Shown piece by piece: positions 15,294 through 32,786 of a stretch of 32,961 nucleotides of DNA; the stretch's first letter is position 1; the number at the start of each line of letters is the position of its first letter. The position numbers and the translations under genes were made by a program. The notes under the pieces were generated by a model, which worked only from the letters and a program-made list of their open reading frames with translations, did not search any database and was not told the origin of the DNA. The DNA lies in NCBI GenBank assembly GCA_903920005.1, contig CAIXKI010000095.1, positions 1-32,961 of the forward strand, written 5' to 3'. Source of the DNA: an uncultured delta proteobacterium. Its GTDB lineage: Bacteria > Bdellovibrionota_C > UBA2361 > OMII01.

Positions 15294-17213
15294 ATGCGTA
15301 AGTCATCTACCTCGCAGACACAGAGTGATAGCACCCCTCTATCCGTTCCTCGATCTGAGGTTGGGGGTCGTCTGTCCGCGCAAAATCGTCTTCCGCATCT
15401 CTTAAAAGAGGCGCTTACGGACGAGGTCTCTCCGTTGCGCGCTCAGTTGTCTCCGACCCAAATACACTTTCTCAGGGCAATGTACCTTCCGCAGGTGCCC
15501 GATGTGTCTGATGGACGAGGCTCTCAGTTTCAACATAGAGCTAATGGATGCTCCCTCCTCTTCAACGCCCTACGCGATCGGGGGTACACGCGCGAGGATA
15601 TAAAAGCTGGGCTTGAAAAAATTAGGTACCTCGATTTCATTGAACGAGCGGATCGGTGGATTGATGATGGAGGGGAGTCTCCGACCAGCCCCATGCCGGG
15701 AGATTTCACTTTCGATGTTCGCAGTCGAGCGCACGCCAAATCCGCGTTTGAAGGCTTCGCTCGTCACCTTCGTATTCCACCGAACTTTTTTGATCACGGG
15801 ACGATTACCCCCTTCTTCCGTCCATCTCTTGGCTTTGGCTTTAGAGTTTCGCAAGGCGGGGAGGTTCATTCGTTTTTGTGCGCTTCCCTGGATGGCGTTC
15901 GATTGGCACCGATTAATGAGGATACGCAGGCCTTAGCTCGTGGCATGGCTTCTGAAAGCAGACACCTGATGAATCTGTTGCAAAGAAGAGCCCCAGTCGA
16001 TCTGAATTTGGCGTTTGCTCCCCGTCCTATTACGTATGCTGGTACCCTTCGAATAGCGCTTTTTCCTAAGAACGACCCGAGGTGCCCCCCTGCATACGTC
16101 TATCTTCCGCCCTCGGTGAGGGAGTCAGCCCTAGTGCCCAATGTGGATGGCCAGGCGTTGATGCGAGGAGAGAGAGTTGTTGAGCTTCGGGGAAAAGAAT
16201 CGAAGAAATTAGTCGCGACGGTAACGCTACACGCGGAGACTGTTACACTGGCGACCCTAAAGCTTGCGCCTGATGTTAGCGCGTCCCTCTACACGCGTTT
16301 CCGCCCGGTCTCCCTATATCTTCGTGGGCTAATCCAGGAGCCGCCGGACCCTATTAGGACTGACATTAATCGACGGGAGATCGGCAATGGGGTCAACCAA
16401 CGCGTTCTCCTTGGCTGTCAAATGGTGGTGCCGGCCTGGTACCCTTTCCGCACGATCACCGTGCATCCGATCGTATCCCCTACAGGGTCGCGCCACGTGG
16501 GCCTTTACCCGCTCGGAGTTTCTCCAGTTTCAACACCGCCACTAAAAGCATTTATGCTCGATGAGGCGAAAACTGAATGGCATCCGATAGAAGTAACTGC
16601 CGCATGGAACGGTCCGAACGCGGAGCGAGATAGATTGTTTAAACTTATTGAGCGAGTCACGGGCTCAAACGCGACAGTCTCTCGCGATGCGTGGGTAGAG
16701 TTTCATGAGTGGGTAAAGAATGATCCCGTTCTTTTACATAGCCTGCTATGCGTGCGAGAAAATCCGGTGTCATTGCGTAACGTGCCTGGTGTTAAAAAGC
16801 TCTTTGAGTTGCCAGGCTGGGAAAGTTATGAGGCGCGCATCCGCCGCGCAGTGTGTGCATATCAAGCTAGTTCGGTGCCGTTTGTAGCGAATCTCTTACT
16901 CGAGGCAGGCGCCCCGAGAAGCTATAAAGTTGAGTGGCTTCTTAAAAGGATGCCGGACTATGCGACCGGACCGGAGGCTAAACCGCTTGACCTCTTGACT
17001 CGACTTGCCGTTACGGCGCCGAAAGAGTTGGAGACCACGCTTGCGGAGATTCGAAGCAGCCCTCTTACGGAGTTCGCTCGACTCGTGGGTGACTATAGGT
17101 CTGTTTCAGAATTAATCGGAGGGCTCTCAAGAGTTGCCCCGGATCCCCTACGGCTGCGTCCGTGGAGGGAAGATCGTGAGTATGGAGCTACCGAACTCAG
17201 TTCTGAATCCTAG
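15294..17213 (+). CDS. Large hypothetical protein
   Basis: This 639-residue protein has no motif I recognise. Residues 1-30 are Ser/Thr-rich and probably disordered. The body mixes helices with long beta-type stretches, such as KLVATVTLHAETVTLATLKL about 302-321 and a region at 375-400, and the C-terminal 180 residues are helical. There is no signal peptide or membrane segment. Only a poor ribosome binding site precedes ATG 15294. It is on the same strand as the CDPS-like/racemase pair but 455 bases upstream, so co-transcription is uncertain. The style (N-terminal Ser/Thr/Pro tail, no homology) resembles the N-terminal part of the large helicase and the 19344-20060 product. Confidence 0.65.
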   Translation: MRKSSTSQTQSDSTPLSVPRSEVGGRLSAQNRLPHLLKEALTDEVSPLRAQLSPTQIHFLRAMYLPQVPDVSDGRGSQFQHRANGCSLLFNALRDRGYTREDIKAGLEKIRYLDFIERADRWIDDGGESPTSPMPGDFTFDVRSRAHAKSAFEGFARHLRIPPNFFDHGTITPFFRPSLGFGFRVSQGGEVHSFLCASLDGVRLAPINEDTQALARGMASESRHLMNLLQRRAPVDLNLAFAPRPITYAGTLRIALFPKNDPRCPPAYVYLPPSVRESALVPNVDGQALMRGERVVELRGKESKKLVATVTLHAETVTLATLKLAPDVSASLYTRFRPVSLYLRGLIQEPPDPIRTDINRREIGNGVNQRVLLGCQMVVPAWYPFRTITVHPIVSPTGSRHVGLYPLGVSPVSTPPLKAFMLDEAKTEWHPIEVTAAWNGPNAERDRLFKLIERVTGSNATVSRDAWVEFHEWVKNDPVLLHSLLCVRENPVSLRNVPGVKKLFELPGWESYEARIRRAVCAYQASSVPFVANLLLEAGAPRSYKVEWLLKRMPDYATGPEAKPLDLLTRLAVTAPKELETTLAEIRSSPLTEFARLVGDYRSVSELIGGLSRVAPDPLRLRPWREDREYGATELSSES

Positions 17214-23565: not shown

Positions 23566-24066
23566 TTACAAGAGAGCCGATCCCCTCACTCCTACGTGCC
23601 ATTTCAAAGCGGTGACCTTTCGTTGACCAAACCTTCCCCGCGTATAATACACCTCGATGATATCGATTCTGTGGTTGCGGAGAGAGAACCTCCGACAGAG
23701 GGGGCCATGGTTGCGCATGAATCTCTTAAGGAGCGAGGAGAGGTGCTGATATTTTTCCGGTGTCACGGCGGCGATGCCAGGATAGGTATGCATCAGTCGC
23801 GAGTGGCGTGTCTTCACTTCGACAACAGCAACGGTTCGGCGGTCAATGAGGATGATATCTGCTTCTAGACGTGACGCTCGCCAATTCGTTGTAACGACAA
23901 GGAGACCGTTTTTTTTAAGGTGGTATCGAGCAACGCGCTCTCCCCATCGCCCGATCGATCGGTGGAGTCGGATCTCGGTCTTTAGGCCAGCGAAGAAAGC
24001 TCGAGTCCGTTCGATGAAACGCGCGCAGGAACGACTCCAGCAAATGTTCTTCGGTGCACTCGACAC
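23566..24066 (-). CDS. yraN: YraN family (UPF0102) putative endonuclease
   Basis: This 166-residue protein has the YraN core: SIGRWGERVARYHLKKNG (37-54), then TNWRASRLEADIILID (60-75) and the nuclease pair D70 with E83-V-K85 in VVEVKTRHSR. This is a small PD-(D/E)XK, Holliday-junction-resolvase-like fold; the in vivo role of the family is unclear. The GTG start at 24066 overlaps rnhB by 85 bases; a later start is possible because the conserved part begins near residue 37. The rnhB-yraN order is common in bacteria and implies translational coupling. The basic N-terminal extension is longer than usual. Confidence 0.85.
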   Translation of the reverse strand: MSSAPKNICWSRSCARFIERTRAFFAGLKTEIRLHRSIGRWGERVARYHLKKNGLLVVTTNWRASRLEADIILIDRRTVAVVEVKTRHSRLMHTYPGIAAVTPEKYQHLSSLLKRFMRNHGPLCRRFSLRNHRIDIIEVYYTRGRFGQRKVTALKWHVGVRGSALL

Positions 24067-24569
24067 GGACCAAGCTCCAGAATAGCGCGCTTGTGAGCGG
24101 GTGTCGGATAGCCTGAGTGCTTTTCAAGCCCATATCCGGGATATTTGGCCCCAAGGGTTTCCATCAACCGGTCTCGGTACACCTTAGCAAGGATCGACGC
24201 GGCAGAGATCTGCACGTGCAATCGATCTCCCCCTACTACCGTCCTCTGAGGGAGTGAGCACACGATCGGTTGATTGCCATCTATCAGCACGAGGTCAGCC
24301 TGAATGCGCTCAACAGCGAGACGCATGGCAAGCTTCGTCGCTTGGAGTATGTTGATAGCCTCGATTCGACGTGGACCCACTGCTATAATCGCCCAGCTCG
24401 TCGCGGTTTGTTGTATCTGTTCGAAAAGAGCGTTCCTTTGTTTCGCGGTGAGGGCCTTAGAATCTTGAATAAGATGGTTCTCGTACCCTTCAGGAAAGAC
24501 GGCGGCCGCCGCCACTACCGGTCCAGCAAGTGGCCCTCTTCCTGCCTCATCAACGCCGCAAATTAACAT
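23982..24569 (-). CDS. rnhB: Ribonuclease HII
   Basis: This 195-residue enzyme removes ribonucleotides from DNA by cutting RNA in RNA-DNA hybrids. The family opening CGVDEAGRGPLAGPVVAAA gives the first catalytic pair, D7 and E8. QDSKALT (35-41), LVLIDGNQ (94-101, D98) and ASILAKVYRDR (124-134, D133) carry the other conserved positions, and GYGLEKHSGYPTPAH (145-159) is the C-terminal signature. ATG 24569 is chosen because it starts five codons before the signature and follows AGGGAG by about 6 bases; the frame extends upstream to 24635. It overlaps yraN at its 3' end. A 287-bp spacer before the next gene shows no further features. Confidence 0.95.
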   Translation of the reverse strand: MLICGVDEAGRGPLAGPVVAAAAVFPEGYENHLIQDSKALTAKQRNALFEQIQQTATSWAIIAVGPRRIEAINILQATKLAMRLAVERIQADLVLIDGNQPIVCSLPQRTVVGGDRLHVQISAASILAKVYRDRLMETLGAKYPGYGLEKHSGYPTPAHKRAILELGPCRVHRRTFAGVVPARVSSNGLELSSLA

Positions 24570-24856
24570 CAGTGCTCCCTGGGTGAGTGAGAAGGGCTTG
24601 GTCATCCCTTCACTATAATGGACTGAGATATACACGAGTTGTCGAGGGTGCTCTATCCGAAACTAGTAGTTTTAGGACAGGGCCACTCATAAGAATTCAT
24701 GAGGATTCTAGGCTCCGCCTACTGATAACTCGTAACTCCCAGCCCCTGCAGAGGTTTCAGACCTACGAAAGTGTTATTGCGTCGTTATCGGGTAAGGGAT
24801 AGGGTAAAAAGGTAGTCGCATCGAGATGTTGAATCAGATTCCTGGCCTTTAAGCGT

Positions 24857-25204
24857 ATGGATATTTATCGGTTCTTTCATCCTCATCACAATCCTCGGTT
24901 GGTGAATACCGCTTTGCGGTACACTGAACTGAGTGAGCTCTTACAAGCGGCTGTTGAGCTCAGAAAGGCGCTTGAGCGGGCGCAACAAAGAACCTCGCGG
25001 CAGGCTATCCCGCCGATACTTTCTGAGCATTTCACCGATATCATTAAAGCGGAGAGATTTATTGAAGAGTCCCTTCAAACCCTCTGTGAAGTGCATCCGG
25101 GCGATTCCGGGGATGAACTACAAAGGTTAGCGTCCGAGCGCTCCTCCAGTTCTGGCTGGCAGGCGTGGACCAAAAGCGTACAGACAGGCATCAGTACTAA
25201 ATAA
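24857..25204 (+). CDS. Small hypothetical helical protein
   Basis: This is 115 residues, unrecognised. It is predicted to be mostly helical (residues about 15-45 and 52-80), with an N terminus rich in His/Pro/Asn (FFHPHHNPRLVNTALRYTE) and a Ser-rich tail. There is no signal or membrane segment. The ribosome binding site is poor. It ends 22 bases before the LOG-family gene, so the two are probably co-transcribed. Confidence 0.5.
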   Translation: MDIYRFFHPHHNPRLVNTALRYTELSELLQAAVELRKALERAQQRTSRQAIPPILSEHFTDIIKAERFIEESLQTLCEVHPGDSGDELQRLASERSSSSGWQAWTKSVQTGISTK

Positions 25205-25226
25205 AGCCAGAGAACGAAGAGGAAGT

Positions 25227-26045
25227 ATGTCCGGTAGTAAGAGAAATAAGGCCCCACGAAACACGAAGGGGAAAACTTTAAAATCTAAGAAGGTAACTGA
25301 CACCCCTCGAGTTCCAGGAGAGCTAGAGAGTCGGCGTGGTAGTCGCAGCGAGCGACGAAAACACCTCGACGAGCGTCTCCGGCTGCTCTATCAGCGCACG
25401 ATGGTGATTGAGGATGAGCTTCGTCGATTAGATGAAGATCGTTTCTATCGTGTTTGTATCTTCGGTAGTGCTCGTATTAAGCCGGAGACAAAGCCGTATA
25501 CTGACGTGTTTGAGCTTGCCCGATATCTTTCATGGGAGGGGATCGATGTTCTTACGGGGGGAGGTCCAGGCCTCATGGAAGCCGCCAATATGGGTGCCCG
25601 CCTCGGTAGTGAAGAGAAGAAGACGAAGAGCCTCTCCTACGGTCTCTCAATTCAGCTTGATTTTGAGCCGGAGCCGAACAAGCATCTCGATATCAAGCGA
25701 CATCACCACAAGTTCTCGTCCCGTCTGGATGATTTTATCCGTCTTTCGAACTCAGTGGTTTGTACTCCTGGAGGAATCGGCACAATCCTGGAGTTTTTCT
25801 TCGTCTGGCAGCTGATTCAGGTAAAGCACGCCACCCCCCGACCGATCGTTCTCCTTGAGCGCGCATTTTGGGAGAGTTTCTTTGAGTGGATGAAGAAGGA
25901 ACCGCTTGGGCGAGGGCTCATGGGAGAAAAAGATTTCTCAGTGATCCATATCGTCGATACGCCTGCAGAGGCGTTCGAGATTATCTCTCAACACCACCAG
26001 GAGTTCCGCTCCCGTACTTCCAAGATCGTTGAAGAGCCGACGTAA
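25227..26045 (+). CDS. LOG family protein (lysine decarboxylase-like, putative nucleotide phosphoribohydrolase)
   Basis: This 272-residue protein has the Rossmann-type LOG domain at about 74-258. Key motifs are VCIFGSARIKPETKPY (76-91), LTGGGPGLMEAANMGAR (109-125) and the family signature PGGIGTILE (181-189, pattern PGGxGTxxE). FSSRLDDF (163-170) occupies the place of the usual M-x-x-RK segment. The family cleaves nucleoside 5'-monophosphates, including cytokinin ribotides in plants, and is commonly mis-annotated as lysine decarboxylase. A basic, low-complexity N terminus of about 50 residues (Lys/Arg-rich) is unusual. ATG 25227 has AGAGGAAGT upstream. It ends 21 bases from the convergent pseudo-ABC gene. 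Confidence 0.9.
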   Translation: MSGSKRNKAPRNTKGKTLKSKKVTDTPRVPGELESRRGSRSERRKHLDERLRLLYQRTMVIEDELRRLDEDRFYRVCIFGSARIKPETKPYTDVFELARYLSWEGIDVLTGGGPGLMEAANMGARLGSEEKKTKSLSYGLSIQLDFEPEPNKHLDIKRHHHKFSSRLDDFIRLSNSVVCTPGGIGTILEFFFVWQLIQVKHATPRPIVLLERAFWESFFEWMKKEPLGRGLMGEKDFSVIHIVDTPAEAFEIISQHHQEFRSRTSKIVEEPT

Positions 26046-26066
26046 GCAAGCGTAAAGGAGATGAGG

Positions 26067-27488
26067 TTATTCCTCGCCCTCTTGTTGTCGTCGCTCGGCG
26101 GCGGCGCGGATAGCCTCTAAGAACTTCTGTCTAATCGCTTCTCGTCGAGACTCCTCCTCAGAGGCGTCAACTGGTTCTGATTGTTCTGGCTCAGACCAGC
26201 CTCCCGAAGATTGAGGCTCCTCGTATGAAGATTCAACCCCACCCGAATCTCCTCCCGGTTCGGGCTTATCGGAGCTTGCGCTCTCAAGGAGTGAGTAGAG
26301 AGAGCCGCTTTTTTGTTGAGCTGGTTGAGCTTGTATTGGTTCTTCAGAAACAGCGACCTCTCCCATGACTCCTCGGCTCGTATCGAGTAGGGCGGCTTTG
26401 ATGACCTCTGGGTATTTATCCAGGAGGAGAGCGGTCTTTATCTTCTCTCCACTTCCGCCATTGAGCGAGGCCGCGGCGTGTTGGGCGGTGGTATCTCCTT
26501 TACTCTCGGCGATCTTCTTTAGTGTTTGGTCCGAAGTGGTTGCCATCGCCGTCTTAGCGCTACGCGCCGGCGCGCCCTGGTCTTTGGCGTCGAGCACTCC
26601 GGTAAAAGTTAATGCGGCCCAGATACCGATACTTCCCGCGCCTAATGCCGAGGCTCCTTTGAGCGCTACGAGAGTGAAAGGTTGTTGCCACCACGGGGCA
26701 TGTATCTCGTGTGGGACATAGTTAGCTTCTTGTTCGTCTGCTGAGCCAGTCGCGGTCGCGATAGCTCCAAACGACGCGGCCGCCGCTAGTGGACGAGAGC
26801 TATCGTCAGACTGCTCCTGTCGAAGCTGGTCTCGTAACTGATTCATAAGTTGAGTCGTCTCGGAATCGTGTGATCCGAAGCCGATAGTTTTGCGGAGCGC
26901 TTGCCCCACCTGTTGGCGCGAGATCGTCGCGTTGTCGATCCAGTTGTCGGGGCGATATGAGAGGCTCGCCACAATAACGAGGCCGTTCTTCGTGCGAGCA
27001 TACTCGGAGAGATATTCCGCGAATCGCTCTCGCCACTGACTTGAGATCGGCTCAAACGGTTCATTGAGTATGAGCGCTTTCTCGGCAGAGATAGTTGTCC
27101 CAAGGATTCGAACCCGTCGCTCCTCATCGAGTGAGAGTGACGAACACTGACGCTCTGCGCAGTTCTCGAGACCGAATGCCATGAGAAGGCTATCGACCGA
27201 ACCCTCTGTGAGCCCCTCACCAATGAGGTATTGGGCTACGGTTTGGCCCGAATGGGGAGGAATCTCTCCGAACCCGATCAGATGATGTTGTTCGTGGCGA
27301 TACTCTGTGTTGTCTAAAACGATCACGAAGCGTTCTTTGCCCTGAAAACCAGAGAGAGCTCGTTGATACGGCTTAAGTTCGCTCGGAGATTCGGCGCGAA
27401 GAACAGAGATCTGTCCTGCCGCGCAATTTGTCATATTGAGGAGCTCTCCTGACTGTGACAGCAGCTTGATTTGTAATTTCTTTGGCAT
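26067..27488 (-). CDS. Degenerate ABC-ATPase domain fused to membrane segment and low-complexity tail
   Basis: This is 473 residues from ATG 27488 (an upstream TTG at 27494 adds two). Residues 1-190 follow an ABC ATPase fold with all nucleotide motifs eroded. Walker A is replaced by AESPSELK (32-39) within GQISVLR...YQRALSGFQG. The Q-loop region is IGFGEIPPHSGQTVAQYL. The signature is LSLDEERRVRI (118-128) instead of LSGGQxQRV. Walker B is ALILNEPFEPIS (138-149), with Asp replaced by Asn. The H-loop is VASLSYRP, with His replaced by Ser. A hydrophobic segment lies at about 270-298. The C-terminal 170 residues are Ala/Ser/Glu/Pro-rich, ending in a charged helix (EAIRAAAERRQQEGEE). Probably a non-hydrolysing structural or regulatory subunit at the membrane. 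Confidence 0.7.
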   Translation of the reverse strand: MPKKLQIKLLSQSGELLNMTNCAAGQISVLRAESPSELKPYQRALSGFQGKERFVIVLDNTEYRHEQHHLIGFGEIPPHSGQTVAQYLIGEGLTEGSVDSLLMAFGLENCAERQCSSLSLDEERRVRILGTTISAEKALILNEPFEPISSQWRERFAEYLSEYARTKNGLVIVASLSYRPDNWIDNATISRQQVGQALRKTIGFGSHDSETTQLMNQLRDQLRQEQSDDSSRPLAAAASFGAIATATGSADEQEANYVPHEIHAPWWQQPFTLVALKGASALGAGSIGIWAALTFTGVLDAKDQGAPARSAKTAMATTSDQTLKKIAESKGDTTAQHAAASLNGGSGEKIKTALLLDKYPEVIKAALLDTSRGVMGEVAVSEEPIQAQPAQQKSGSLYSLLESASSDKPEPGGDSGGVESSYEEPQSSGGWSEPEQSEPVDASEEESRREAIRQKFLEAIRAAAERRQQEGEE

Positions 27489-27670
27489 CCCCAATCCCCA
27501 ATTTCTAGTGGATCACGCATTCCGTCATCCCCCTCGGTTATCGGAGGGTATACGGAGTTCCTTTAGTTTTGGGGGCGAGATGCAAGGAGGGGATGCCCCT
27601 GGCCACGGGGGCGTCGAGATAGAGAGACTGCCGATCGGTACAACTGGCTGATACGAGGGAGTTATGGGTG

Positions 27671-27734
27671 AAAAAAACGGGGCCGGCGGCACTTGTGGTG
27701 GTTCTACACCACCTACGGAGTGCCGTCGGTCCCG
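27671..27734 (-). terminator. Compound terminator of the peroxiredoxin gene
   Basis: On the minus strand a 16-bp outer stem (plus-strand arms 27678-27693 and 27719-27734, two G-U type pairs) encloses an inner hairpin, GGTGGT (27697-27702) with ACCACC (27708-27713). It is followed in the minus direction by seven Ts (plus-strand A-run 27671-27677). The position just after the peroxiredoxin stop supports an intrinsic terminator. The bipartite stem is unusually long. Confidence 0.85.
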
Positions 27735-27747
27735 CGGTTTGAACGTC

Positions 27748-28281
27748 TTAGTTCAACGTCTTCTGGCCAGGGGTCCATCCACATGGGGTGAGTTTCTCGG
27801 TTTGGAGAGCCTCGACCACGCGAAGAACCTCGTCAACGTTGCGGCCCACGCTGAGGTCGTTCACAGATACCCAACGAATCGTGCCTGAGGGGTCAACGAT
27901 GTATGTCGCTCGGAGGCAGATCCCGGCGTCTTTGTGAAGGATGCCGAGTGTGCTTGAAAGTTCACGCTTGAGGTCGGCAAGCATTGGGAAGGGGAGCCCC
28001 TTCAGGTCACGATGATCTTTACGCCAAGCAAGGTGGCAGTACTCAGAATCCGTGCTGCAGCCGAGCACCTGACAATTAAGCTTTGTGAAGTCGGCGTTCT
28101 TGTAGCCGAACTCAGCAATCTCAGTCGGGCATACAAAGGTGAAGTCGAGTGGCCAGAAGAAGACTACCTTCCACTGTCCCTGATAGGCAGATTCGGTGAT
28201 GGTTTGGAACTCTTTGCCCTCATCAAGAGAGACGCATGCTTTAAGGGAGAATGAAGGGAATGTATCGCCAATTGTTAACAT
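27748..28281 (-). CDS. Peroxiredoxin (AhpC/Prx1-type, 2-Cys)
   Basis: This 177-residue cytoplasmic thiol peroxidase reduces hydrogen peroxide and organic hydroperoxides. The peroxidatic cysteine lies in FTFVCPTEI (C51), preceded by VVFFWPLDF. Arg124 in CLRATYIVDPSGTIR matches the conserved active-site Arg. A C-terminal cysteine in TPCGWTPGQ (C167) would be the resolving Cys of a typical 2-Cys enzyme. Length is near the family norm (about 175-200). ATG 28281 has an excellent ribosome binding site (CCGAGGAGCTTCT). No AhpD or AhpF partner lies in the window, so the reductant is unknown. A 97-bp spacer separates it from the divergent fusion gene. Confidence 0.95.
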   Translation of the reverse strand: MLTIGDTFPSFSLKACVSLDEGKEFQTITESAYQGQWKVVFFWPLDFTFVCPTEIAEFGYKNADFTKLNCQVLGCSTDSEYCHLAWRKDHRDLKGLPFPMLADLKRELSSTLGILHKDAGICLRATYIVDPSGTIRWVSVNDLSVGRNVDEVLRVVEALQTEKLTPCGWTPGQKTLN

Positions 28282-28304
28282 AGAAGCTCCTCGGTTTTTT
28301 TGCT

Positions 28305-28325
28305 GGGTCCCTACGGTACGGGACC
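28305..28325. promoter_or_regulatory. Inverted repeat in the divergent peroxiredoxin promoter region
   Basis: GGTCCC (28306-28311) and GGGACC (28320-28325) form a dyad separated by 8 bases, in the 97-bp space between the peroxiredoxin (-) and the fusion gene (+). The spacing suits a dimeric regulator or a leader hairpin of the peroxiredoxin mRNA. It does not match known OxyR or PerR boxes that I can recall. Confidence 0.35.
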
Positions 28326-28378
28326 TATCAGATTGTTGTCAAGGAACGTGGAAGTTGGTCTAGTAGGAGGAACAGGAT

Positions 28379-30196
28379 ATGGGGCGAGCAAGGCCAAGCA
28401 TGCAGAATATAGTCATCAGCCGAGATGAAGCGGTAAGGCTTCGAGAAGGTTATCGAAATACGGGCAAAACCGTCGGCTTTACTTCAGGCGTGTTTGATAT
28501 CGTTCATGCTGGGCACGTTGAGTATCTGGAAGAGGCTAAGCGGCGGGTTGATATCCTTATAGTGGGTATAAACGCGGATTCATCGGTTAAATCCAATAAG
28601 GGCGAATCTCGTCCGATCGTCGGGCAAGAACAACGCGCCGAGGTCATTGGGGCGCTCAAGGCGGTTGATCACGTTTTTGTGTTTAGTGAGCTGAATAATA
28701 ACGAAAATGTGACGCTCCTCAAGCCGGATGTATATCTTAAGGCTGGTGACTATTCCGTCGACCAGTTGTCGTCGAAGCAGTTGGTGGAATCATACGGTGG
28801 GCGGGTAGAGCTCGTTGCCTTCAGAGCGGGCCTTTCATCGACCTCGATTATAAGAAAAATAGCTGAATCTCATACGACAGTAGAGGGGCCGGACGTTTCT
28901 CATGAGAGGGTGCCGGCTGTGTTCGTGGATCGAGACGGAACGATCAATGAACATGTGGAGTATCTGAGCGATCCAAAAAAGTTTGTGGAGATCCCGAATA
29001 GCTTCAAAGCGCTCAAGCGGATTCAGGACCTTGGGTACCGAATAGTGGTTGTTACCAATCAGCCCGGTATCGGCCTCGGATATTTTTCGAAAGAAGAATT
29101 CTTCGCGGTGAATCGAGAAATGATGAAGCATTTCTCCGCCGCTGGTTGTTCAATCGACAAGATTTACTTCTGTTCGCACTCAAAAGCGGAGAAGTGCGTA
29201 TGCCGAAAGCCGGAGCCATTCTTTATTCACCGAGCTGAAAAAGAGCTAAACGTAGATGTCGCGAAGAGCTTCGTTATTGGAGATATGTCGTCCGATATTC
29301 AGCTCGCGAAGAACGCCGCCTGTGGAAGTATTCTCGTAAAGACAGGACGAGGAGGGGACGATGGAATGTTCCCTGCTTCCCCGGATGTCACCGTCGCCGA
29401 CCTTTCCGCGGCCGCCGATTTTCTTGAGAGTCAAGGTCGAGTGGTGCCTGAGAGAGCGTCTTCAGCGAAGGACCTTAGGGCAGAGTCGTTGTCTACCAGC
29501 CTCTCCTCCTCACTTGGAGGAGATTTCGATAATATTTTCGGCTCGATCCTTGGATGTGCGGCGTTAATCGCTCAACGAGTGGGGGTGGATAAGGGGTTGT
29601 CGGGTGTCGATGATGCGTTGACGATACTAAAAAAAGCCGCTGTTCGAGGCTTGGCTATCTCAAAAAAGATGAACAATCTCTTTTCGGCGAGTGGCTCCGC
29701 CCGAGGTTGTCGCTCGCTGCGCGCGTGTATTCAGTCTGTCGTCGAACTTCTTTCCAGCTCTCATAACGGAGAGTGTCAGATAGAGATCGTTTGTCCTCAC
29801 GATGTGGAGGTCGAGATGGCGGATTTCACGATCGTGCAGATGCTTTTAGAGCTCTGTGAGAACTCCCTCGAGGCGATGGCGGCGCTTCCTGAGCGATTCA
29901 TAATGTTCCACGTTGGAGTTGTTGATGTTCGAGAGCAGGCGAGCGCGCTTGAACTTGAGGCTGGTACCTATGCGAAGGTAAGCCTCGTGGATCATGGTGA
30001 GGGTATCGAGCCGGATCAGCGAGAGGTCGTATTTCAACCCTTTTCGTCAAAGAAGGATCAGGATTCCGGAGGTGGAATCGGTATTAGCCTCTCAATGGCG
30101 AAGGCTGTCATGAAGAAGCATGGTGGTACGATTACTCTCGCCTCTCAGCCGCGAGTCGGAACCAACATCTCTCTCTATTTCCCTACGGCCCGGTGA
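28379..30196 (+). CDS. Fusion: HldE-type nucleotidyltransferase, GmhB-type phosphatase and histidine-kinase-like domain
   Basis: 605 residues in three parts. Residues 30-162: cytidylyltransferase-like fold of HldE domain II, with TSGVFDIVHAGHVEYL (HxGH at 43-46), NADSSVKSNKG and LKAGDY; it would add ADP to heptose-1-phosphate. Residues 178-350: HAD phosphatase like GmhB, with DRDGTIN (184-190), TNQPGI, the Zn-type cysteines C265, H267, C273, C275 in the CSHS...CVCRKP loop, and GDMSSD (301-306); it would dephosphorylate heptose-1,7-bisphosphate. Residues 375-605: kinase-like module, with N-box ELCENSLEAM (491-500), G1 DHGEGIEP (538-545) and G2 GGGIGISLSMAKA (564-576). The DHp-like segment reads LGGDFDNIFGSILG (379-392), where the usual HDFNN His is Gly. 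ATG 28379 has AGGAGG 8 bases upstream. The HldE sugar kinase domain is absent. Confidence 0.88.
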   Translation: MGRARPSMQNIVISRDEAVRLREGYRNTGKTVGFTSGVFDIVHAGHVEYLEEAKRRVDILIVGINADSSVKSNKGESRPIVGQEQRAEVIGALKAVDHVFVFSELNNNENVTLLKPDVYLKAGDYSVDQLSSKQLVESYGGRVELVAFRAGLSSTSIIRKIAESHTTVEGPDVSHERVPAVFVDRDGTINEHVEYLSDPKKFVEIPNSFKALKRIQDLGYRIVVVTNQPGIGLGYFSKEEFFAVNREMMKHFSAAGCSIDKIYFCSHSKAEKCVCRKPEPFFIHRAEKELNVDVAKSFVIGDMSSDIQLAKNAACGSILVKTGRGGDDGMFPASPDVTVADLSAAADFLESQGRVVPERASSAKDLRAESLSTSLSSSLGGDFDNIFGSILGCAALIAQRVGVDKGLSGVDDALTILKKAAVRGLAISKKMNNLFSASGSARGCRSLRACIQSVVELLSSSHNGECQIEIVCPHDVEVEMADFTIVQMLLELCENSLEAMAALPERFIMFHVGVVDVREQASALELEAGTYAKVSLVDHGEGIEPDQREVVFQPFSSKKDQDSGGGIGISLSMAKAVMKKHGGTITLASQPRVGTNISLYFPTAR

Positions 30197-30357
30197 TGTC
30201 CTGGCAGCCGAGAAGGGGTGCGGAAAAGGAGTGATCGCGCACGGATGACGCTCTGCTAGCCCGCAAATCTCTGCCACCGCCCGAAGGTTCCATAACAGAC
30301 CAATTGGGCGTGGTCGCGATGCACGGTTTCGAGTACCAGGGCTTATTGGCCGCCTTC

Positions 30358-31884
30358 CTATCGCTTCTTTTGAGTTCTCTTTACATTCGAGGATGCTTGC
30401 TTTGAGCTTTTCTTCACGAAGGAGCTGTATGAGCTCTTGCTGCCGCGACTCTTTTTGACTGAGGTGCGACGAACTGGAGCTACCGGTTCGGCGGGTGTTA
30501 TGCCGAAGTATTTTTGAAGGACGAGTCTTCCTAGATGTGATGCTTTTGAAGAGCTACGAGGGTCTACCGTGATCACAGCTACCGCGATTTTAGGATTTTG
30601 AATGGGCGCGGCGCCGATGAACCAGTTGTTAAGTCCAACAGGATTATCTCCGGTAAGAGTTCCTGTTTTTCCGGCCACGTCGATGGCGCCGAGGGTAGGT
30701 GATGAGCCTCTCATGAACTCTCGGCGAGAGGTCCCAACCGTTGTGGTGTAACGCATCATTTCCATCAAGGATTCTGATGTTGATGGTTGGACGATCCGTT
30801 GAAGGGTCTCGGGCTTCTGCTTATGGAGTACTACTCCGTCCTGATTGACGATCGTGTCGATAAGTTGCGGACGAGGTAGGAGACCTCCATTGGCGACTCC
30901 CGACATAATCGCAGCCGCGTGAATCGCGCTTAGGCGCACCTCTCCGAATCCCGCCGATGTTCTGCTTAATTCGTACTGGTTGTCTTGTGGGATCCACGCC
31001 GAACTCTCAGGCAGAGGGGCTTCTAAGGAGAGGCCTCGGTTAAATCCGAAGAGGCGGGCATATTTGGCAAGGATGTCGCCGTTTAGGTACTTAATCCCAA
31101 GGTGCCCGAACACTGGATTGCAGGAGCGCCCGAGAGCCTCTCCAACGCTCATAACCCGACGATCTTTGCTCGGATCGGGATAATAGTTGGCTTGATTCAG
31201 GGTGTACGTTCCGCCACGAAATGGAATGAGCGAGTGAGTAGCGATGCCTGCGTGTTCGACCGCTGCCGCGGCAGTGACTACTTTGAAGAGAGAGGCAGCC
31301 GGAAACCCCGCGTGGTATTCGATGTCTTGGATTGAGATTGATTTGCCCGCGATTGCTAAGATTGCCCCTGTCGAAGGCGCCATGGCGACGACGGCCACGT
31401 GATTAGCTTGCGCGCGATTCACGACGCTTTTTACGTACTCTTGAAGGTCCGCGTCGAGTGTGTAGAACACGAAGTTGTTGTTTGAGGTTGCGTGAGCAAA
31501 GCGATCTCCGATACGCGCGTCAAACTTCGGACGATCGCTGAGAGTGATGTCACCGTTGGCGGTGGTGCGAACGTTGACGCGACGTGTTTCGGGAAGGGGG
31601 TACGCGCGGCCGACAGTGCGAGAGTCTTCGTTCATCGCAAGGCGCTCAACGGGTGCTCGGTTAAGAGTGCGTTCGATTTGAGCTTGGACGACCGGATCGT
31701 TCGACAAAAGTTGAGCTTGATCTTGGATGCTGCTGTCGGCAGCTATCGCCGGAGAACTAGAGGCCGCGGCTACGATGGCCAGAGCTATCGCGTTAAGAGC
31801 TTTTCGGTACGGGGTCATTGCAAGCTTAGCGAGCGGGGATGGGGAAGCTTCCTTGTTTGTTGCTTGCTCGCGAAACACCTGCAT
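30358..31884 (-). CDS. Penicillin-binding protein with D,D-transpeptidase domain
   Basis: 508 residues. The transpeptidase motifs are complete: SLFK (198-201, nucleophile S198), SCN (254-256) and KTGT (406-409). Supporting landmarks are VVAMAPSTGAILAIAG (165-180), YWPD-like YYPDPSK, and SAGFGEVRLSAIHAA (310-324). A cytoplasmic stretch of about 25 residues precedes one hydrophobic segment (28-48, ending SSPAIAA), either a signal or an anchor. The N-terminal non-catalytic part (50-135) is much shorter than in typical class B PBPs, and the Lys/Ser/Arg-rich tail (468-508) is unusual. It cross-links peptidoglycan in the periplasm. ATG 31884 is chosen for GGAGG upstream; a Met at 31818 is an alternative. 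It may be a divergent MrdA/FtsI-like or accessory enzyme. Confidence 0.9.
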   Translation of the reverse strand: MQVFREQATNKEASPSPLAKLAMTPYRKALNAIALAIVAAASSSPAIAADSSIQDQAQLLSNDPVVQAQIERTLNRAPVERLAMNEDSRTVGRAYPLPETRRVNVRTTANGDITLSDRPKFDARIGDRFAHATSNNNFVFYTLDADLQEYVKSVVNRAQANHVAVVAMAPSTGAILAIAGKSISIQDIEYHAGFPAASLFKVVTAAAAVEHAGIATHSLIPFRGGTYTLNQANYYPDPSKDRRVMSVGEALGRSCNPVFGHLGIKYLNGDILAKYARLFGFNRGLSLEAPLPESSAWIPQDNQYELSRTSAGFGEVRLSAIHAAAIMSGVANGGLLPRPQLIDTIVNQDGVVLHKQKPETLQRIVQPSTSESLMEMMRYTTTVGTSRREFMRGSSPTLGAIDVAGKTGTLTGDNPVGLNNWFIGAAPIQNPKIAVAVITVDPRSSSKASHLGRLVLQKYFGITPAEPVAPVRRTSVKKSRGSKSSYSSFVKKSSKQASSNVKRTQKKR

Positions 31885-32309
31885 GTGTTGTAGACCTCCG
31901 AGAAAAGATTCTCTACCGTCTCGTTGGGCCAGAACAACAGGCCCCTCTTTCTATACCGCGGTAGGTGGTAGAGATAAGATGCCAAGAGGAGCAAAAGTTT
32001 GCGCCAGAGCGCCGAGCCCTTGCCCGTCTTCTCGACGCTTTTACGAGCCGAGAGGAGGATTCTGAACATGAGGAAACGATAAGTTTTAATGCTGACTGAA
32101 ATCGCGTGTTTCAACAATCCCTAAACACCCTACAGCAGCCTTTCTTCGCAACTTTATGGTGGTCGAAATCCTCGTGGGATTGATTAAGCTTCAGAGGCTA
32201 AGTTTTTGGCTCCGTGGTCAACTTCGTCATTCTTTTTGCCCGTCGCTTCTGGTAGGAATCTCATCCAGGTTGCTTGTTGTTGCTCCTAGAGTGAAGTATT
32301 GAGAGTCCT
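31885..32309. other. Intergenic region between divergent PBP and bactofilin genes
   Basis: This 425-bp spacer separates the divergent PBP (-) and bactofilin (+) genes. A 100-codon minus-strand frame crosses it (to 32117), but it runs into the PBP gene out of frame and resembles nothing. I see no terminator, tRNA or clear promoter pair. Confidence 0.5.
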
Positions 32310-32786
32310 ATGTTGTGGAAAACAAAAAAATCGTCGTCTCAGACCCCTCCTAGTCACACGACATCGACCCCGGACGTGCCGTCCAGGCCGGCTGAAGAGC
32401 GGGTGTCCCAGTTCGAGGTAACTCCACAGAATCTCGATGTTTCGGTTAAGCGCCCATCGGGGGCTTTCGTCATTGCGAAGGGTTATCGCGTAACTGCCTC
32501 AGTTATTACAGCTCGCCCAGTGGTAGTTCTTGGCGAGCTCGTCGGAGAATCCCTCACGTCCCCATCTGTCTCTGTTGGTCCGAATGGTCGGTTGAATATT
32601 CCCGTTGAGACCAACTCCCTAACGGTTGAGGGTGCGGTAGAGCAGCGGGTGCGTGCCAGAGACACTGTAGAGGTGAAGTCGGGCGGCGCGATTCTTGCTG
32701 ATATTGAGGCTGCTGCCATCTCTATAGCTCCAGGAGGCGTTGTTTCGGGCGCTCATCTTGCGATCGGCCCTCTTCGGGCTGCCTAG
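32310..32786 (+). CDS. Bactofilin (polymer-forming cytoskeletal protein)
   Basis: 158 residues. A Ser/Thr/Pro-rich N-terminal tail (1-45) precedes a right-handed beta-helix repeat region (about 50-155) with the bactofilin pattern of alternating V/I with G turns every 16-18 residues: VVVLGELVGESL, VSVGPNGRLNIPVE, VEVKSGGAILADIEA and ISIAPGGVVSGAHL. Bactofilins self-assemble into filaments without nucleotide and often position cell-wall enzymes. The divergent neighbour is a peptidoglycan transpeptidase, which fits that role. ATG 32310 has a modest purine stretch (GAGAG) upstream. A hairpin terminator lies about 107 bases downstream. Confidence 0.8.
   Translation: MLWKTKKSSSQTPPSHTTSTPDVPSRPAEERVSQFEVTPQNLDVSVKRPSGAFVIAKGYRVTASVITARPVVVLGELVGESLTSPSVSVGPNGRLNIPVETNSLTVEGAVEQRVRARDTVEVKSGGAILADIEAAAISIAPGGVVSGAHLAIGPLRAA

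Follow-up and report, generated by a model that had tools for sequence, protein, structure and literature searches.

A putative bifunctional ADP-heptose enzyme carrying a pseudo-histidine-kinase tail in an uncultured delta proteobacterium

The window (the whole stretch of 32,961 nucleotides of DNA that was analyzed) carries on its forward strand a gene whose reading frame is open throughout, starts with ATG and encodes a 605-aa product combining a HldC-type nucleotidyltransferase (NT), a GmhB-type HAD phosphatase and a tail related to histidine kinases (HKs) (Table 1). A second in-frame ATG at 28400 matches, in the alignment, the start of most relatives, and no sigma-70 promoter or terminator is conspicuous around the gene. 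An earlier note on this DNA had described a one-frame, three-part fusion with a strong ribosome binding site; the open frame and the AGGAGG preceding its ATG bear this out, and the domain search that the note had called for recovers, by Pfam and NCBIfam, the three modules in the order it had given. Its description of three complete signatures stands for the HAGH motif of the NT domain, for DRDGT and CxHx5CxC of the HAD domain and for the N-box (ELCEN) and G1 box (DHGEG) of the tail (where the G2 box reads GGIGIS), but not for the kinase-like module as a whole, which is incomplete (residue 381 is Gly). In the AlphaFold2 model of the full protein, the NT and HAD domains are confident and the helical hairpin of the tail, which precedes a CA fold modeled at residues 447-603, is moderately so; the placement of the domains relative to one another is not fixed (pTM 0.41).

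Table 1. Coordinates of the fusion gene and its features within the window
Feature	Position	Strand	Basis and remarks
Complete CDS, 605 aa (HldC-type nucleotidyltransferase + GmhB-type phosphatase + pseudo-histidine-kinase tail)	28379..30196	+	frame check, domain searches, orthologues
Ribosome binding site AGGAGG	28365..28370	+	8 nt 5' of ATG at 28379; from sequence
HldC/RfaE domain II nucleotidyltransferase, residues 28-163	28460..28867	+	profiles, intact HxGH, match to 5xf2
GmhB-type HAD phosphatase, residues 178-350	28910..29428	+	profiles, intact DRDGT and Zn-type CxHx5CxC, structural matches
Fast-changing linker, residues 351-378	29429..29512	+	pN 0.28-0.60; overlaps predicted start of hairpin helix 1
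DHp-like two-helix hairpin, residues 364-401 and 408-436	29468..29686	+	AlphaFold2, moderate confidence here
H-box position, residue 381 = Gly	29519..29521	+	alignment; His in 22/22 comparison HKs, 3/11 tails
CA (HATPase_c) ATP-binding fold, residues 447-604	29717..30190	+	Pfam, AlphaFold2, Foldseek
N-box Asn495 (Mg/ATP ligand position)	29861..29863	+	invariant in 11/11 tails
G1 box DHGEG, residues 538-542	29990..30004	+	Asp and first Gly invariant in 11/11 tails; second Gly in 10/11
G2 box GIGIS, residues 566-570	30074..30088	+	final GxGxG glycine replaced by Ser in 11/11 tails; Gly in 22/22 HKs

The N-terminal part of the fusion protein matches Pfam CTP_transf_like (residues 35-158, 1.2e-16) and NCBIfam rfaE_dom_II (TIGR02199; residues 23-162, 2.2e-49, 167 bits, slightly under the cut-off of 181.5). 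A PDB sequence search with this part returned a putative cytidylyltransferase (5x9q/5xf2, of which 5xf2 is HldC), and a Foldseek comparison of the model with Burkholderia pseudomallei HldC (5xf2) gave a target TM of 0.85-0.92. The domain that follows is covered by Pfam HAD families around residues 177-344 (Hydrolase_like, 1.4e-12) and by the NCBIfam GmhB profile PRK08942 (NF006506; residues 178-350, 3.4e-47, 160 bits, slightly under the cut-off of 178); the HAD-IIIA motifs DxDGT, TNQ, RKP and GD..D and the Zn-binding loop are all present, and GmhB structures were recovered both by the PDB sequence search (4pnh, 2gmw) and by Foldseek with the model (3l8h, 3l8e and 2gmw; target TM 0.86-0.88). 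The GmhB profile also outscores hisB_Nterm on this domain (160 vs. 97 bits), a comparison that speaks only indirectly to substrate. The earlier identification of an ADP-heptose enzyme is thus supported by the rfaE_dom_II and GmhB profiles, the intact motifs and the structural matches (with activities predicted from family and motifs), and the NT-HAD half appears to be a bifunctional enzyme that catalyzes two successive reactions of ADP-heptose synthesis. The GmhB domain of the corresponding fusion in genome G012, from a second family of the order, is devoid of the Zn-binding cysteines (L017; SPHTKAENSKWRKP); members of the genus retain them.

Within the source genome, the fusion protein is the sole HldC match as well as the sole GmhB match. 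Encoded elsewhere in this genome are GmhA (181 bits), a stand-alone HldA-type kinase (330 bits), HldD (391 bits) and GT9 heptosyltransferases, the HldA-type kinase gene adjoining GT9 genes in relatives. The HldD score lies above its cut-off; those of GmhA and HldA, like those of the NT and GmhB domains, fall a little under the strict cut-offs. Since the fusion is the only candidate for both domains, the pathway would have gaps unless this protein provides the 7-phosphatase as well as the adenylyltransferase.

The tail matches Pfam HATPase_c (PF02518; residues 485-604, 8.8e-18) and an NCBIfam VirA-like sensor kinase profile (residues 375-603, 8.6e-22); the PDB sequence search returned ZraS (9jfj), and Foldseek matched the tail model to DHp-CA structures of HKs including CckA, HK853, ZraS and RetS. 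We have compared 11 fusion tails (10 from the genus and that of G012) with 22 HKs, almost all of which belong to this lineage. PF02518 was matched in all 11 tails and PF00512, weakly, in three. Four residues (Asn495, Asp538, Gly540 and Gly566) are invariant in tails and HKs alike, whereas the phospho-accepting His is replaced by Gly, Ala, Arg or Tyr in 8/11 tails, and the F-box position (Phe555), occupied by Phe or Tyr in 22/22 HKs, retains Phe in 4/11. The His is kept in G002, G007 and G012 and the F-box in the window protein, G004, G006 and G012, the two occurring together only in G012 and in none of the genus members. An acid at H+1 is retained in all 11 tails and Asn or Thr at H+4 in 10 of them, and an FGSILG stretch following the H-box is nearly invariant.

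A GHKL module, as previously proposed, is therefore present (PF02518, a HK-like match, intact N and G1 boxes), but its reading as an ordinary kinase-like sensor fails, with the His absent here and in 7/10 others and the G2 box altered in all. Indeed, Gly at residue 381 already refutes the classical sensor-kinase form for the window's own protein, and with no His in its tail autophosphorylation is not expected. Judged by these residues, the tail is a HK transmitter that, in most members, is predicted not to be a working kinase.

The pN/pS analysis was based on Nei-Gojobori counts in which pS is saturated, so that only the contrast between regions is meaningful: in close pairs, pN was 0.10-0.22 in the DHp-like and CA parts vs. 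0.28-0.60 in the linker, and 0.075-0.20 in the NT and HAD domains, near the tail values. In more distant pairs, pN of the DHp-like part reached 0.25-0.35. Purifying selection on the tail is comparable to that on the catalytic domains, and random decay of a useless tail is ruled out by its low pN relative to the fast-changing linker. A conserved HK fold, a replaced His and maintained selection together make the tail a pseudo-histidine kinase.

Conservation in relatives, which the earlier note had made a touchstone of the fusion, was found: 10 of the 12 genomes of the genus have the three-part architecture, in nine as a single frame and in G006 split across two contigs, and also in G012 (609-aa frame). 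The two genus genomes without the fusion have completeness values of 60% and 70%. Besides the window's protein, the genus has eight single-frame orthologues, which are 55-67% identical to it and show conserved synteny. An assembly chimera or frame error joining adjacent genes might be suspected, given that the genomes are draft metagenome assemblies only; nine single-frame copies in separate genus genomes plus G012, in the same gene order, refute such an artefact and make its probability negligible. The remaining gene-bearing members of the order encode an NT-HAD protein mostly of about 340-390 aa, ending 5-30 aa past the HAD match, and no match of that strength was found in the searched genomes of other orders of the class. 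Tail-less NT-HAD proteins are also present in other phyla, including one phylum with matches of that strength in 26/82 genomes, most of them lying in one frame of some 360-420 aa. Thus, the joining of nucleotidyltransferase and phosphatase, previously considered exceptional, is not so (NT-HAD proteins of some 350-400 aa are found order-wide and in another phylum), and because this fusion is widespread the novelty lies in the tail. Long frames in G353 and G068, considered as further fusions, proved to be a HldE-like NT-bearing frame followed by a separate HAD gene. A full-length three-part match was found outside the two families in none of the genomes searched; nor is an NT-GmhB-HK protein described in the open-access literature searched, an absence that is no proof.

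All eleven tails group in a single clade that excludes the 22 HKs (support 100/99; the G012 branch is long and flagged by a warning), and each has the G2 Ser and a gap of one residue ahead of the N-box. The G012 tail scores 114 bits against the window tail, the best HK in the ten genomes searched scoring 94. An independent gain of the tail in G012 is not favored in view of the single clade, the shared Ser and gap and these scores. The minimum number of changes on the tail tree is two for the His and one for the F-box; we read the former as one loss and one regain, the alternative being four losses without regain. In the simplest reading, one fusion preceded the split of the two families and the kinase residues were lost mainly in the genus. 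As the NT-HAD tree gives G012 no firm position, the gene may instead have been transferred whole at a later time. As to the ultimate source, the tail would derive from a VirA-like/HisKA histidine kinase.

In the window, the fusion gene stands between a divergent AhpC-type peroxiredoxin gene and a convergent PBP gene, and across the order it tends to sit between a group of RNase HII, LOG-type and uncharacterized genes and a group of PBP, bactofilin and mreB-mreC-mreD-mrdA-rodA genes (PBP, bactofilin, LOG and RNase HII were named by search; mre, mrdA and rodA by eye from translations). No response regulator was recognized beside the fusion gene, and no partner gene was identified. The conserved block (window 23985-32783 and L116-L134: rnhB, LOG-type, uncharacterized, PBP, bactofilin and, by eye, mreBCD-mrdA-rodA) forms a positional link between LPS-core supply and cell-shape genes. 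One of its neighbors (26070-27494, minus strand) encodes a 475-aa protein that is conserved across the order and has no Pfam or NCBIfam match; its N-terminal part resembles, by eye, an ABC-type ATPase but shows no clear Walker A. The AhpC/TSA peroxiredoxin gene (27751-28281, minus strand) adjoins the fusion in some relatives only. Further upstream, positions 15294-17213 (plus strand) encode a 639-aa protein.

Overall, we favor (with a probability of about 0.6) a bifunctional ADP-heptose enzyme whose kinase-dead transmitter serves as a nucleotide-responsive regulator or a response-regulator dock. The HAD domain would strip the 7-phosphate from heptose 1,7-bisphosphate, and the NT domain of the same chain would then turn the resulting heptose 1-phosphate into ADP-heptose. 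Since the parts for autophosphorylation are lost and the nucleotide pocket and fold are kept, the most likely properties of the tail, as its residues and fold suggest, are ATP or ADP binding and dimerization; it would act as an allosteric or docking module, and its role is probably that of a switch or adaptor rather than of a kinase. Either the adenylate state could set enzyme activity through the tail, or the tail could hold, and perhaps dephosphorylate, a response regulator depending on the enzyme. The tails that still have the His (G002, G007 and G012) may take part in phosphotransfer by another kinase. The coupling of LPS-core supply to a signal, suggested in the earlier note, is possible.

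The homology of the tail to HisKA-type HKs across DHp and CA, along with the His, DxxN and F-box retained in G012, would also be consistent with a genuine two-component sensor kinase having the enzymes as its input, in which bound heptose phosphate would control both autophosphorylation and the onward phosphotransfer to a response regulator. This is quite improbable, as the His is gone from 8/11 tails, the F-box from 7/11 and the G2 glycine from 11/11, the protein has no REC domain and no adjacent response regulator was recognized. A DivL-like, kinase-dead response-regulator phosphatase or dock that follows the state of the heptose enzyme, the narrower of the two halves of the explanation we favor, is possible if tentative. 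It would fit the H+4 and H+1 residues that persist despite the loss of the His, and the nearly invariant FGSILG; moreover, phosphatase activity in CrdS and EnvZ benefits from the His without depending on it (PMC3510030). However, PleC does require the His for this activity (PMC3510030), no partner was found, and in CrdS it is the H+4 residue that is needed for phosphatase and the H+1 acid for kinase activity (PMC3510030), which leaves retention of the latter unexplained. Somewhat more doubtful is a scheme with the LPS-core enzyme as the input of a two-component pathway, where the kinase-dead transmitter would bind and dephosphorylate or hold a response regulator and envelope expression would track ADP-heptose flux. 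We consider it unlikely that the tail is a purely structural dimerization element, a HK relic without ligand or signaling role: the loss of catalytic residues agrees with this, as does the fact that most of the order manages without a tail, but nucleotide-site residues invariant in 11/11 tails and the strong constraint on CA exceed the needs of a dimerizer.

A histidine-kinase transmitter usually takes its input from sensor domains; in the fusion, it is fixed to an LPS-core sugar enzyme and stripped of kinase residues, with its fold and nucleotide site kept. The enzyme with its predicted regulatory tail offers a natural case for asking about the role of a kinase-dead transmitter and about direct adenylate or two-component control of ADP-heptose supply. 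The graded series of tails, from His plus F-box (G012) through His only or F-box only (the latter including the window's) to neither, makes this testable with parallel constructs.

Among known systems, GmhB of Escherichia coli and Vibrio is a protein apart from HldE, and in some bacteria HldA and HldC are likewise two proteins (PMC10948575). Residues 23-162 of the fusion share HxGH with B. pseudomallei HldC (PDB 5xf2) and are 38-40% identical to it over the structural match; the NT domain is joined not to an HldA kinase but to GmhB and a transmitter. With GmhB (2gmw, 3l8e, 3l8h) the fusion shares the HAD motifs and the Zn-type cysteines, as a middle domain here. Uncurated bifunctional NT-HAD (HldC-GmhB) proteins from this order and from other phyla (L018-L028, L198, L200-L205) have the same domain order and about 40-57% identity, but none has the tail, those of the order ending shortly past the HAD domain. 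The tail is 23-30% identical over about 235 aa (DHp and CA) to VirA-like/HisKA hybrid HKs of its own genus (L002, L171, L176), from which it differs in having no sensor or REC domain and in having mostly lost the His, the F-box and the G2 glycine. DivL of Caulobacter, a HK with Tyr in place of His, regulates without kinase activity (PMC4211667); common to both proteins, and the features by which we liken them, are a HK transmitter, replacement of the phospho-accepting His and maintenance under selection. DivL, however, has PAS inputs, whereas the remainder of the fusion is a biosynthetic enzyme.
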